Assembly (NCBI GenBank): GCA_945870505.1
Contig: CAMBSN010000012.1
Coordinates: 1 to 47,071, forward strand
Source: Candidatus Kuenenia stuttgartensis
GTDB lineage: Bacteria > Planctomycetota > Planctomycetia > Pirellulales > UBA1268
Direction: 5' to 3'
Length of the DNA: 47,071 bases
In this document: positions 3,266-43,207 of the stretch, one piece after another
Position numbering within the stretch: the stretch's first letter is position 1
Layout of the letters: each line of letters begins with the position of its first letter
The notes under the pieces: model-generated
Told to the model about the DNA's origin: nothing
Databases searched by the model: none
What the model saw: only the letters and a program-made list of their open reading frames with translations
Made by a program: the position numbers and the translations under genes

Positions 3266-3288
3266 CACAGGTTGAAAACCTGTGCTAC
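3266..3288 (+). repeat. Dispersed palindrome CACAGGTTGAAAACCTGTGCTAC (copy)
   Basis: 8-bp perfect arms CACAGGTT/AACCTGTG around GAA, then CTAC. Confidence 0.9.
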
Positions 3289-12250: not shown

Positions 12251-12330
12251 ACTCAGTTGGAACCCGCTCTCCGTGGGGAGACGCCTGCGGCCTTACGGCC
12301 GGTCGGAAGGATCGGAGCCCTCGCGTGGTG

Positions 12331-12528: not shown

Positions 12529-12660
12529 GGGGCTGCCCGTGCCCCGGGAGCCGGCGTTGCTGACCAGCGCAGCCATGGATGGCGGAGCGCAGTCAGCATC
12601 GAGAGAGCGGAGGCCTGGAGGGCCGTAGCGAACGTCCGGCGACGGGGCACGGGCAGCCCC
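12529..12660. repeat. ~130 bp element with 17-bp perfect terminal inverted repeats, copy 1
   Basis: ggggctgcccgtgcccc (12529-12545) and ggggcacgggcagcccc (12644-12660). Confidence 0.85.
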
Positions 12661-22410: not shown

Positions 22411-22567
22411 GGGGCTGCCCGTGCCCGAGAGCCGGCGTTGCTGGTCGAGCGAAGCCACGACCAATCCGCCTGCGGCGGATCGGTGCCCGGCGAAGCGAGA
22501 GCGGCATCGAGTGAGCCGAGGGCAGGATGCCCGAGGCGAACGTCCGGCGATGGGCATGGGCAGCCCC
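22411..22567. repeat. Terminal-inverted-repeat element, copy 2
   Basis: ggggctgcccgtgccc and gggcatgggcagcccc ends; shares gagccggcgttgctg and gcgaacgtccggcga with copy 1. Confidence 0.8.
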
Positions 22568-38330: not shown

Positions 38331-39938
38331 GTGACGCCATCCCCCCCACCTCCGTCGCCGTCCCGCGAATCGCTGCTGGCCCGCCTGCGGTCGGCTGACG
38401 TGTTTGACCTGATCGTTGTGGGCGGCGGGGCGACCGGCCTCGGCACCGCCCTCGACGCTGCCGCCCGCGGCTTTTCGACGCTGCTCGTTGAGGCCGAAGA
38501 CTTCGCCAAGGGGACGTCGAGCCGGGCGACGAAGCTCGTCCACGGCGGCGTGCGGTATCTCGCGCAGGGCAACGTGTCGCTCGTCCGGGAGGCGCTTCAT
38601 GAACGAAAGCTGCTCCTCGACAACGCCCCGCACCTCGCCCAGCCCCTTCCCTTCCTCGTGCCGGCCTACGGCGTCGCGGGCCGGTTCTGGGATCTGCCGT
38701 TCTATGGGATCGGCTTGGCGATCTACGAAGCGCTCTCGGGATCCGAGCGGCTCGGCCGCGTGGGCCTGCTCGGTCGCAAGCGGGCCTTGGCCGCCGCGCC
38801 GGGCCTGGAGTCGAAGCGACTCGCCGGCGCAATCCGCTACTGGGACGGCCAGTTCGATGACGCCCGGTTTGCCGTCGCCCTCGCCCGCACGGCGATCGAT
38901 GAAGGCGCGATCGTGCTCAACTACTGCCGCGCGAGGCGGCTGATCATGGAGGGCGGGGGCGTTGCGGGCGTCGGCATCGAAGACCGTGAGACGGGCGAGT
39001 GCTTCGAAGTCCGCGGCCGCTGCGTGATCAATGCCACCGGCGTCTGGGTCGATGCTCTGCGGAAGCTCGACGAGCCTGCGGCGGCCGACCTCGTAGCGCC
39101 CAGTCAGGGCGTGCACCTGGTCGTCGACCGCGACCGGTTTCCGTCATCGAGCGCCATGCTCGTGCCGAAAACGGCCGATGGCCGCGTGCTCTTCGCAGTG
39201 CCGTGGCTCGGGAAGGTGATCCTCGGCACGACCGACACGCCCCGACATGACACACCCCTCGAGCCGCGTCCCTTCGCCGAAGAGATCGACTTCATCCTCA
39301 CGGAGGCTGGCCGCCGGCTCGCCGCGCCTCTCACTCGATCCGACGTCCGTTCGGCTTGGGCCGGCCTGCGGCCGCTCGTGAAGCCCGCTGCAGGTGGGCG
39401 CGACACGAAGCGGATCTCACGGGAGCACACGGTCGAGGTCTCGCCGCACGGGCTGGTGAGCGTCACGGGCGGCAAGTGGACGACCTACCGGGCGATGGCG
39501 GAGAGCGTGCTCGACGCCTGCATGAGCCACGGCTTGCTGCCCAACCGCCCCGCAGGCGTGACGCGGCACCTGCGACTCATCGGGGCGCCGCCGCGCGGCA
39601 CCGCTACGGTCTCCATCACCGAACCGCCGGGCCCGCACCTCTACGGCACCGAAGCGGCCCTTCTCGCCACACTGCCCGGCGCCGAGCGGATGCTGTTGCC
39701 TGGGTTCAGCGAGGCAATGGTCCGCTTTGCGGCCCGACACGAACTCGCCCGCTCCGTGGAAGACGTGCTCGCCCGCCGCTCGCGATGGCTCTTCCTCGAC
39801 GCCCGGCGCGCCGCCGATGCGGCCGAGCCGGTCGGGGCCATCCTCCGCGACGAACTGGGCGAGCGGTTCGATGCCGCCGCGTCGGCAGGCGAGTTCACGC
39901 GGCTCGCGGAGGCGTACCGCATACTACCGCTCCCGTAG
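38331..39938 (+). CDS. glpD: FAD-dependent glycerol-3-phosphate dehydrogenase
   Basis: FDLIVVGGGATGLGTALDAAARGFSTLLVEAEDFAKGTSSRATKLVHGGVRYL; VTGGKWTTYRAMAE; likely GTG start at 38331. Confidence 0.93.
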   Translation: MTPSPPPPSPSRESLLARLRSADVFDLIVVGGGATGLGTALDAAARGFSTLLVEAEDFAKGTSSRATKLVHGGVRYLAQGNVSLVREALHERKLLLDNAPHLAQPLPFLVPAYGVAGRFWDLPFYGIGLAIYEALSGSERLGRVGLLGRKRALAAAPGLESKRLAGAIRYWDGQFDDARFAVALARTAIDEGAIVLNYCRARRLIMEGGGVAGVGIEDRETGECFEVRGRCVINATGVWVDALRKLDEPAAADLVAPSQGVHLVVDRDRFPSSSAMLVPKTADGRVLFAVPWLGKVILGTTDTPRHDTPLEPRPFAEEIDFILTEAGRRLAAPLTRSDVRSAWAGLRPLVKPAAGGRDTKRISREHTVEVSPHGLVSVTGGKWTTYRAMAESVLDACMSHGLLPNRPAGVTRHLRLIGAPPRGTATVSITEPPGPHLYGTEAALLATLPGAERMLLPGFSEAMVRFAARHELARSVEDVLARRSRWLFLDARRAADAAEPVGAILRDELGERFDAAASAGEFTRLAEAYRILPLP

Positions 39939-40110
39939 CACAGGTTTTCAACCTGTGCCGATCTTCTGCGCAGGTTGAAAACCTACGCTACTCACCACCC
40001 CCGGTAGCACAGGTTTTCAACCTGTGCCGATCTTCACCGCAGGTTGCCAACCTGCGGCTACGATTGGCCGATCACTTGCGCCCCGTAGCACAGGTTTTCA
40101 ACCTGTGCCG
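39935..40110. repeat. Array of five palindromic repeat copies
   Basis: Three gtagcacaggttttcaacctgtgccg units alternating with gcgcaggttgaaaacctacgct and ccgcaggttgccaacctgcggctac. Confidence 0.92.
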
Positions 40111-40194
40111 TCCTGTGCCGTCCGCAGCTCGTTTGCACGGGCAGCGCGGGCTTCGGTATCTTCCGACTCCCATCTCGCAGGAGCACGCCCACCC

Positions 40195-41451
40195 ATGATC
40201 CACATCCATCCCTTCGCCGCTCTCCGCCCAACCGCCGCCCATGCCGCCGAGGTCGCCAGCGATCCCTACGACGTGATCTCGACCGAGGAGGCGCGCGAGC
40301 GGGCCGCCGGCAAGCCGCGATCGTTTCTGCACGTGGTTCGCTCCGAAATCGATCTGCCGCCGGAGACCGACTGCCACGCGGCCGCGGTCTACGAACAGGC
40401 CGACCGAAACCTGCAGGCGATGATCGCCGCAGGCTCGCTGCTCCGTGATCCCGAGCCCGGCCTCTATCTCTACCGGCAGATTAGGAACGGTCAGGCCCAG
40501 CTGGGGATCGTGTGCTGCGTCGAGGCGGAACAGTACCGCTCGGAAGACATTCGTAAGCACGAGAAGACACGGCCCGACAAGGAGGACGACCGCACCCGGC
40601 ATCTGCTCGTCACCGCGTGCCATGCCGAGCCGGTGTTTCTCTGCTTTCGCGACCGGCAGCTCGCCGGCAGCACGCTCGCCGCGCGGATGCAGGCCGATCT
40701 GGCGTCTGCCCCGCTCTTCGACTTCGTCGCGGCCGATGGAGTTCAGCACACCGGCTGGAAGGTGCCCGCACCGGCCCCGTATCTCGAGGCGTTTCGCGGG
40801 CTCGACCTGCTCTACATTGCCGACGGCCACCACCGCTCCGCCGGTGCTGAGCGGGCGGCGACGGCGTCGGCGAAGGCGAACCCGCGGCACACCGGCGGCG
40901 AGGAATACGGCCGCTTCCTCGCCGTCGTCTTTCCGCACGACCAACTCCGTATCCTTCCCTACAACCGCGTCGTCAAAGATCTCGCCGGCCTCACGCCCGA
41001 GCAGTTTCTCGAACGGCTCCGGGCCGTTGGCGACATGCGGCCGTCACAGTCGGGCGAACCGGACCACCGGGGCACGGTGCGGGTGTTCGTGAATGGCAGC
41101 TGGTGGTCGCTCGAGTTCCCCGAGGCGTCGATCGACCGGGCCGACCCGATCGCCAGCCTCGACGTCTCGCTCCTCCAAGACCGCGTCCTGGCCCCGATCC
41201 TCGGGATCGGCGATCCCCGAACCGATTCCCGGATCGAGTTCGTGGGCGGCATCCGCGGCTGCGACGAACTAGAACAGCGGGCCGGCCGGGGCGGCGCCGC
41301 TTTTTCCATGCATGCCACGAGCCCCGACGAACTGCTCGCCGTGGCCGACGCGGGCGAGATCATGCCGCCGAAGAGCACCTGGTTTGAGCCCAAGCTCCGC
41401 AGCGGCCTGTTCGTCCACGAGTTCGAACGAATCGCCGGCGCCCGGGTCTGA
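40195..41451 (+). CDS. DUF1015 family protein
   Basis: IHPFAALRPTAAHAAEVASDPYDVIS...FLHVVRSEIDLP...IRKHEKTRPDKEDDRTRHL...YIADGHHRSAGAERAA. Confidence 0.93.
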   Translation: MIHIHPFAALRPTAAHAAEVASDPYDVISTEEARERAAGKPRSFLHVVRSEIDLPPETDCHAAAVYEQADRNLQAMIAAGSLLRDPEPGLYLYRQIRNGQAQLGIVCCVEAEQYRSEDIRKHEKTRPDKEDDRTRHLLVTACHAEPVFLCFRDRQLAGSTLAARMQADLASAPLFDFVAADGVQHTGWKVPAPAPYLEAFRGLDLLYIADGHHRSAGAERAATASAKANPRHTGGEEYGRFLAVVFPHDQLRILPYNRVVKDLAGLTPEQFLERLRAVGDMRPSQSGEPDHRGTVRVFVNGSWWSLEFPEASIDRADPIASLDVSLLQDRVLAPILGIGDPRTDSRIEFVGGIRGCDELEQRAGRGGAAFSMHATSPDELLAVADAGEIMPPKSTWFEPKLRSGLFVHEFERIAGARV

Positions 41452-41491
41452 TCCCGGTTCGTGCAAGCCGAAGGCCGTAAGGCCTCGGGCA

Positions 41492-41586
41492 AAAACGGTG
41501 ACAGCCACCTTTTGTCTGTAGACCCCGGCCTTTGGCCGGGGCCGTGTCGCCTGCGGCGACCGGCAAAAGGTGGCTGTCACCGTTTT
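41492..41586. repeat. 22-bp perfect inverted repeat enclosing two hairpins
   Basis: aaaacggtgacagccacctttt (41492-41513) / aaaaggtggctgtcaccgtttt (41565-41586); inner ccccggcc-ttt-ggccgggg (41523-41541) and gtcgcc-tgc-ggcgac (41546-41560). Confidence 0.95.
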
Positions 41587-41605: not shown

Positions 41606-43207
41606 TTATGGAAACCGCACGCTTCGACCGCTCGAGTCCCAGGCGTCAAACACCAGGTGCTCGGGAGACACGCCGTCCTTGCCGACAACGTGCAGCTGGA
41701 TGTGCGTCCGGTCTTCGAACTGGGTGATCTCCCGCCGCTTGCGGTTGTTGATCCAGGTGGCGACCTCGTCGTGCACCGTGATGTTCAGCCGGGTCACGTC
41801 GTCGCGAGACTCCGAGAGGTGGAGCGTCCGCATCACCTCGATCGCCATGCTCTCGGCCGTCTTCACGGTGCCCGTGCCGGTGCACGTGGGGCAATCGCGG
41901 AAGATGCTCTTGCGGAGCGACGGACGGATTCGCTGCCGCGTCATCTCGATCAGCCCGAAGGGGCTCGTCCGCAGGATCTTCGTGCGGGCCCGGTCGCGTT
42001 TCATCGCCTCGTGGATCGCTTTCTCGACACCGCGGCGGTACTTCTCCTTCCGCATGTCGATGAAGTCGTTGACGATCACGCCGCCGAGGTCGCGAAGCCG
42101 AAGTTGCCGGGCAATCTCCTTGGCCGCGATCAGGTTCATCTGGTAGGCATTTTCCTCAGCGCTCTTCTCGGTGCGGAATGATCCCGAGTTGACGTCGATC
42201 GCCACCAGGGCTTCCGTCTGGTCGATGACGATCGATCCGCCGCCCTTGAGCGGCACTTTCCGCTGATGGATCCGCCCGATCTCCTCCTCCAGGCCGTAGC
42301 GATGGAAGAGCGGCTCCTTGCCCTCGTAGAGTTGCAGCCGCGGGGCGTACTTCGGCATCACGAGTTCCAGAAACTCCTTGGCCCGCTCGTAGGCGGCCGG
42401 CTCGTCGATCAGGATCCGCGCCACGTCCTCCGTGAACATGTCACGGATCGTGCGGATGATCATGTCGCTTTCCTGGTAGATATCGATCGGGGCGGAGTAT
42501 TTCCGCATCCGCTTCACGATGCTCTTCCAGAGCCGCAGGAGGTAGGCCATGTCGCGGGCCATCTCCGACTTCGTCCGCTCGGTGCCAGCCGTGCGGACCA
42601 CGAAGCCCACGCCCTTCGGCGGCTTGAGGTCGAGCATGATGTCGCGGAGCACCCGGCGATCCCGCTCGTCGTCGATCTTCTTGGAAATGCCCACGCGTCC
42701 CAGCGGCGGCATCAGCACGAGGTACCGCCCGGGGATCGAGATGTAGGTCGAGAGGGTCGGCCCCTTCGTGCCGAAGCCCTCCTTGATCACCTGCACGAGC
42801 ACCTCGTCGCCCCGGCGGAGGACATCCTGGACCGGCGGCTTCACTCGCGGCCGGTCGCCGAGCCGCGGCTTCCGTCGGGCCCGCGCCGCCTCATCCCCGC
42901 TGGCCTCGGCCGTCTTGCCGGAGGGATCGACGAGGTCGAATGCCTTGTCGGGATCGAGGCCGCCCTGCCGGTAGTACTGCGGCTCCACGTCGCTGATGTG
43001 AAGGAAGCCGTTGCGGCCCACGCCGAAGTCGACGAACGCCGCCTGGATCGAAGGCTCAATGTTGACGATCCGCCCCTTGTAGATATTACCGACGAGGTTG
43101 TCCTGGCTGGTCCGCTCCACGTAGAGCTCCTCCAGCACCCCGTCTTCCATGATCGCGATCCGGCACTCCTCCGGCTGCGACACGTTGATCAGCATTTCCT
43201 GTTTCAT
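41606..43207 (-). CDS. rng: Ribonuclease G/E family
   Basis: MLINVSQPEECRIAIMEDGVLEELYVER...GNIYKGRIVNIEPSIQAAFVDFGVGRNGFLH...AIDVNSGS...LGGVIVNDFIDM...CPTCTGTG. Confidence 0.95.
   Translation of the reverse strand: MKQEMLINVSQPEECRIAIMEDGVLEELYVERTSQDNLVGNIYKGRIVNIEPSIQAAFVDFGVGRNGFLHISDVEPQYYRQGGLDPDKAFDLVDPSGKTAEASGDEAARARRKPRLGDRPRVKPPVQDVLRRGDEVLVQVIKEGFGTKGPTLSTYISIPGRYLVLMPPLGRVGISKKIDDERDRRVLRDIMLDLKPPKGVGFVVRTAGTERTKSEMARDMAYLLRLWKSIVKRMRKYSAPIDIYQESDMIIRTIRDMFTEDVARILIDEPAAYERAKEFLELVMPKYAPRLQLYEGKEPLFHRYGLEEEIGRIHQRKVPLKGGGSIVIDQTEALVAIDVNSGSFRTEKSAEENAYQMNLIAAKEIARQLRLRDLGGVIVNDFIDMRKEKYRRGVEKAIHEAMKRDRARTKILRTSPFGLIEMTRQRIRPSLRKSIFRDCPTCTGTGTVKTAESMAIEVMRTLHLSESRDDVTRLNITVHDEVATWINNRKRREITQFEDRTHIQLHVVGKDGVSPEHLVFDAWDSSGRSVRFP

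Follow-up and report, generated by a model that had tools for sequence, protein, structure and literature searches.

What is a 95-bp palindrome doing between two convergent genes? In the window, i.e. the whole 47,071-nt stretch of DNA analysed here, the DUF1015 gene (40024–41451, plus strand; PF06245, E = 1.3e-91) and the RNase E/G gene rng (41606–43207, minus strand; PF10150, E = 3.6e-100) converge, as an earlier note on this sequence had described, with ends at 41451 and 41606. The palindrome (41492–41586), which has no strand of its own, fills 95 bp of the 154-bp gap between them. Since the Pfam match of the DUF1015 product begins only at residue 61, the real start of that gene is probably near 40195. 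The earlier note had offered three readings of the palindrome, namely a bidirectional terminator, a mobile REP-like element and a processed RNA. Here, we report that the assembly contains this REPIN-like three-stem unit in at least 17 copies, and that it is very probably a non-autonomous REPIN, or dimer of TIRYT-type repeats, moved in trans by a REP-associated tyrosine transposase (RAYT) via folded single-stranded DNA.

A three-stem palindrome and its dispersed copies

The left 22-bp arm, AAAACGGTGACAGCCACCTTTT (41492–41513, plus strand), and the right arm, AAAAGGTGGCTGTCACCGTTTT (41565–41586, minus strand), form an inverted repeat in which one is the perfect reverse complement of the other, and an additional G-C pair (41514/41564) brings the arm stem to 23 pairs. 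Each arm is itself an imperfect REP hairpin, AAAAnGGTGnCAGCCACCnTTT, with the core GGTGACAGCCACC located at 41497–41509 on the plus strand and at 41569–41581 on the minus strand; the left core folds alone into a 4-bp hairpin, or into one of 8 bp if a bulged C is allowed and the A/T flanks take part. Enclosed by the arms are two GC hairpins, with inner stems of 8 and 6 bp, just as the earlier note had read them. These are CCCCGGCC-TTT-GGCCGGGG (41523–41541; 8-bp stem) and CCG-T-GTCGCC-TGC-GGCGAC-CGG (41542–41563), whose 6-bp stem (GTCGCC-TGC-GGCGAC, 41546–41560) is lengthened by a further 3 bp (CCG/CGG) past a one-base bulge. Such an arrangement lies far above chance: from base composition, we estimate that a window of this size would contain of the order of 1e-6 perfect inverted repeats of 22 bp with short spacers. 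On both strands, the fold of a 111-nt stretch reaches about -78.5 kcal/mol (z = -9.5 and -10.2), a stability matched by none of 200 shuffles.

The palindrome is not unique to this site. Genome-wide pattern and model searches recovered 21 exact occurrences of the 20-mer AACGGTGACAGCCACCTTTT at 11 sites of the 3.35-Mb assembly, 10 of these sites being inverted pairs with fixed spacing, and allowing up to 3 mismatches gave 25 forward and 25 reverse matches, against 1 and 1 for a reversed-pattern control. The 14 copies that could be aligned end to end share a mean column identity of 97%, and where they differ it is often in the loops of the inner hairpins. An inner 40-bp motif was found at 17 places in the genome, 17 of 17 inside arms, which rules out the interior as an independent repeat. 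The copy number of the element is thus at least 17, and it is probably higher, since several contigs (C129, C91 and C57) end inside or beside a copy.

A broader search for the core, GGTGnCAGCCACC, gave 59 genomic matches, 44 of which form 22 inverted doublets 45–79 bp apart. These doublets fall into two classes: class A, in which the core continues into CACCAAATCTGGG and which is exemplified by a near-perfect hairpin on contig C132, and class B, with a spacing of about 72 bp and the two-hairpin interior, to which the window copy belongs. According to a simple codon-usage gene caller, only 2 of the 22 doublets lie inside predicted genes, compared with 7 of 10 singlets, so for many singlets the match may be fortuitous, arising from coding sequence. 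Of the two doublets within genes, one probably sits, judging from its position, in a mis-called 5′ end, and the other is in uvrA. The neighbouring genes vary from one copy of the element to the next.

Insertion history and maintained base pairing

In two sister species, G015 and G010, rng and DUF1015 are still convergent and the element is absent from between them: G015, whose RNase E/G is 99% identical, carries other repeats at the junction, and the spacer in G010 is shorter than 50 bp. This observation rules out a locus-specific regulator of rng, and the position of the element between rng and DUF1015 is probably incidental. We compared four further loci (C11, C19a, C19b and C10) with the corresponding sites in sister species. 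For the C11 copy, clean empty sites exist in G015 (88% identity straight through the junction), G014 and G017; for C19a, sister species are likewise without the element, with a junction that itself aligns poorly; C19b gave no information on an empty site, and the flank at C10 is a very abundant, different repeat. The lack of the element in sister species at the rng/DUF1015 junction and at other sites identifies it as an insertion. No target-site duplication was seen in the flanks of the copies, most of which show just a G preceding and a C following the element; the absence of a duplication or of a fixed target is compatible with HUH transposition and gives it no positive support.

Related copies in sister species keep their pairing through compensatory changes. 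In a set of 24 class B copies spanning four species, standard pairs fill 98.1% of the base-pair cells. Changes on both sides were found at seven pairs, four of them in the arms, one in inner hairpin 1 (99.0% of cells paired) and two in inner hairpin 2 (98.6%), compared with 0–2 when the partners were slid against each other. Cells changed on both sides number 30, compared with 8.6 in shuffles. At the level of sequence, compensatory pairing of this kind would fit a DNA hairpin and an RNA hairpin equally and cannot distinguish between the two, and the symmetry of the arms could be renewed by copying instead of selection. The suggestion that perfect arms reflect either recent origin or strong constraint agrees with our data on both counts, given the near-identical copies within the genome and the covariation of the arms between species.

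A putative partner transposase and its repeats across relatives

The genome encodes one Y1_Tnp gene above the Pfam cut-off (PF01797, 42.7 bits versus a cut-off of 23), an intact RAYT of 232 aa on contig C13, located on the minus strand at L031:1180-1878. Its closest match among PDB profiles is the E. coli TnpA-REP (4er8, E = 6.5e-11), and the best NCBIfam model is NF047646 (REP_Tyr_transpos; E = 1.3e-19, 70.5 bits, below the equivalog cut-off of 80), so it is related to, but divergent from, the REP-associated tyrosine transposases of NCBIfam. It carries the HUH motif NHWH and the Y motif YVERNP, and H60, H62 and Y122 are invariant in 13 orthologs. The closest named relatives come mostly from Planctomycetaceae MAGs, several of which are lake-derived going by their isolate names.

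On both sides, the RAYT gene is flanked by inverted copies of GAAAAAGGTGCCAGCCACCAAATCTGGGTA, a terminal inverted repeat of about 30 bp; around the RAYT in seven relatives, the inverted repeats measure 31–37 bp. These ends have the sequence of class A doublets, such as that on C132. The class B core is identical to them bar one variable base, a C in the RAYT ends and an A in the window arm; core and A-tract are common to both, whereas the adjacent AAATCTGGG is absent from class B. The RAYT may recognise class B besides class A.

RAYTs with GGTGCCAGCCACC ends occur in six of the 60 relatives (G000, which is the present assembly, G008, G018, G021, G027 and G030), which hold 59, 56, 59, 16, 29 and 41 cores, respectively. 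These six genomes have a median of 48.5 cores and the remaining 54 a median of 2 (Mann-Whitney p = 4e-5, with no correction for relatedness). The type of core shifts as well: in G001 the RAYT ends are GGTGACAGTCACC, the core of which occurs eight times in that genome (two of these being the RAYT ends) and 0–2 times per genome elsewhere. Poor fits to the correlation are G004, with 24 cores and no RAYT found in an assembly that is 88% complete and split into about 820 contigs, and G025, with 26 cores and a RAYT of a different terminal type. As judged from these genome sequences, both the abundance and the type of the core follow the resident RAYT between species.

By analogy with TnpA-REP biology (PMC6006769, PMC3116915), this RAYT would be the enzyme that moves the element. 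In the element, a conserved spacer with two more hairpins lies between two inverted REPs, each of them an AAAA...TTTT palindrome around the core GGTGnCAGCCACC. The RAYT would recognise the REP hairpins where DNA is single-stranded, for instance at replication forks, use its catalytic tyrosine (Tyr122) to cut and rejoin them, and copy the doublet in trans to new, mostly intergenic sites. After insertion, the strong hairpin present on both strands may influence the 3′ ends of the rng and DUF1015 transcripts.

Competing readings, known relatives and other repeats

Because it lies between convergent genes and forms a very stable hairpin on both strands, the window copy might be taken for a bidirectional terminator or 3′-end stabiliser selected for the sake of rng and DUF1015, the more so as the copies on C10, C11, C19b, C61 and C91 also lie between convergent genes. 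We nevertheless consider such a selected function improbable. A terminator scan returned a single weak site, a 5-bp minus-strand stem (GGTGGCTGTCACC followed by GTTTTTGCCC; one found versus 0.4 expected), and the T tracts measure just 4–5. Moreover, the junctions of G015 and G010 do without the element, further copies sit between co-directional genes, and the genome-wide dispersal of an identical sequence is left unexplained by a local terminator. With sister junctions lacking the element and copies in many contexts, termination, as put forward in the earlier note, would be a side effect at most, although it is plausible that the inserted copy could act as a bidirectional 3′-end hairpin.

The compensatory changes between species that preserve the three-stem fold would also be expected of a structured non-coding RNA family, with dispersed copies of a three-way junction selected as RNA. 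This is the least probable of the readings considered, as hairpins of single-stranded DNA predict compensatory change equally and the copy number follows a transposase. In addition, a promoter-like site was not found in the region, and an Rfam search gave nothing above a gathering threshold (best 32.6 bits versus a gathering score of 110); two microRNA-precursor models that appeared far under threshold were read as hairpin artefacts. The idea of a processed RNA linked to the neighbouring RNase G/E likewise finds no support in these searches, nor in the neighbours, which vary by copy. A miniature element (MITE) of an ordinary DDE transposase, unrelated to the RAYT, would account for a small non-coding unit with perfect terminal inverted repeats and a two-hairpin interior, but it should come with a target-site duplication, which the flanks do not show. 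As the element matches a Y1/HUH transposase gene in its ends, and the number of cores tracks that gene from genome to genome, we regard this reading as very improbable. By contrast, dispersed copies, an interior confined to arms, empty sites and RAYT-linked ends strongly support the mobile REP-like element that the earlier note had listed among its options.

The RAYT-dependent repeat favoured here closely resembles REPINs as described by Bertels and Rainey (2011; PMC3116915), in which an inverted pair of REPs and a spacer form a long hairpin, doublets outnumber singlets, locations are mainly intergenic, compensatory changes occur, and a single-copy RAYT carries matching repeats; a 'clover' fold is described in the legend to their Figure S11. 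Here too, multiple and mainly extragenic copies have the doublet as their main unit, and the REP flanks the RAYT with one base differing. Unlike in REPINs, the core GGTGnCAGCCACC comes without the GT[AG]G tag. Since the hairpin in the arm AAAACGGTGACAGCCACCTTTT has neither GTAG nor GTGG at its 5′ foot, the element is not a canonical GTAG REP and can be called a REPIN in the wide sense only. Its spacer is conserved in sequence and has two hairpins of its own, whereas that report stresses spacer length and the capacity to form a hairpin, and the copy number is modest (22 doublets).

The TIRtrons and TIRYTs of Di Nocera et al. (2013; PMC3733652) are similar in other respects. They combine a RAYT-like gene within non-GTAG inverted repeats of about 30 bp with terminal repeats that are also scattered through the genome, frequently as dimers, and REPs are reported between convergent or unidirectional genes. 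In the present genome, class A doublets have the RAYT end sequence, and class B, including the window copy, the core alone. The end sequence differs from those described there, and one dimer class here has a conserved two-hairpin interior; the more distant RAYTs of the order have GGGGACAG-type ends, which resemble the GGGGWSAS motif given there. The host lineage does not appear to be named there, and no report of Rhodopirellula palindromes emerged from a literature search. Among transposases, the YVERNP and NHWH motifs are of the TnpA-REP class 2 type (PMC6006769), and the length of 232 aa is close to the median of 238 for subclass 2.1. Placed by motifs only, the RAYT differs from that subclass, for which no REP-like sequences are reported, in having them; subclass 2.6 resembles our case in its atypical structures without GT[AG]G.

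The element therefore belongs to a type of miniature mobile element already familiar from bacteria, in a new lineage, and RAYT-linked repeat populations with non-GTAG REPs now reach uncultured, mostly freshwater Planctomycetes. We think it unlikely that it represents a separate, RAYT-dependent class of element within Planctomycetes in which the mobile unit is an obligate three-way junction ('clover'); if it did, recognition by the transposase or the replication fork would involve the inner hairpins, which are conserved and covary across species, in contrast to the spacers of classical REPINs, for which length and the capacity to form a hairpin are held to suffice. Genomes in which the repeat core and the terminal repeat of the RAYT shift together provide a compact natural data set for testing which DNA features the RAYT reads and what role spacer structure plays. 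For annotation, the locus is a warning that a conspicuous palindrome where two genes converge is not necessarily their terminator.

In uvrA (L025:3-2324, minus strand), a three-stem relative of the element lies in frame in the UvrA linker (L025:1499-1600, corresponding to G000:C7:31898-31999). Matches to the element model occur at the equivalent position in G005 and G015, the uvrA matches in G002, G008, G011 and G012 only flank it, and in G001 the same linker contains that genome's REP variant, GGTGACAGTCACC. REPs within uvrA are reported from other bacteria as well (PMC3733652). The assembly also holds second copies of uvrA (G000:C63:986-3292, 85% identical) and of the RNase E/G gene (G000:C101:2557-4170, 90% identical), and the metagenome bin is possibly contaminated by a relative.

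Other repeats accompany the element. A second family, GTAGCACAGGTTTTCAACCTGTGC, shares the GTAG foot with canonical REPs and occurs in the window on the plus strand at 39935, 40004 and 40085, directly upstream of or within the 5′ end of the annotated DUF1015 ORF, and on the minus strand at 3288, 6609, 22356 and 22398; a RAYT for this family was not found in the assembly. A third, AAGCCGAAGGCCGTAAGGCCTCGGGC-like repeat is present at window positions 12289, 12338, 37714, 37766 and 41473, the last adjoining the left side of the element (41465–41490), and at L032:590-1560. A second, weaker Y1_Tnp ORF (L032:758-1252, minus strand) lies amid these AAGCCGAAGGCCGTAAGGCCTCGGGC-like copies, so the two may form a second repeat-transposase pair. 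Finally, window segments 12581–12646 and 22489–22554, linked by eye only, may belong with a repeat of about 140 bp that has dozens of copies in several sister genomes, with more than 30 listed in G015.
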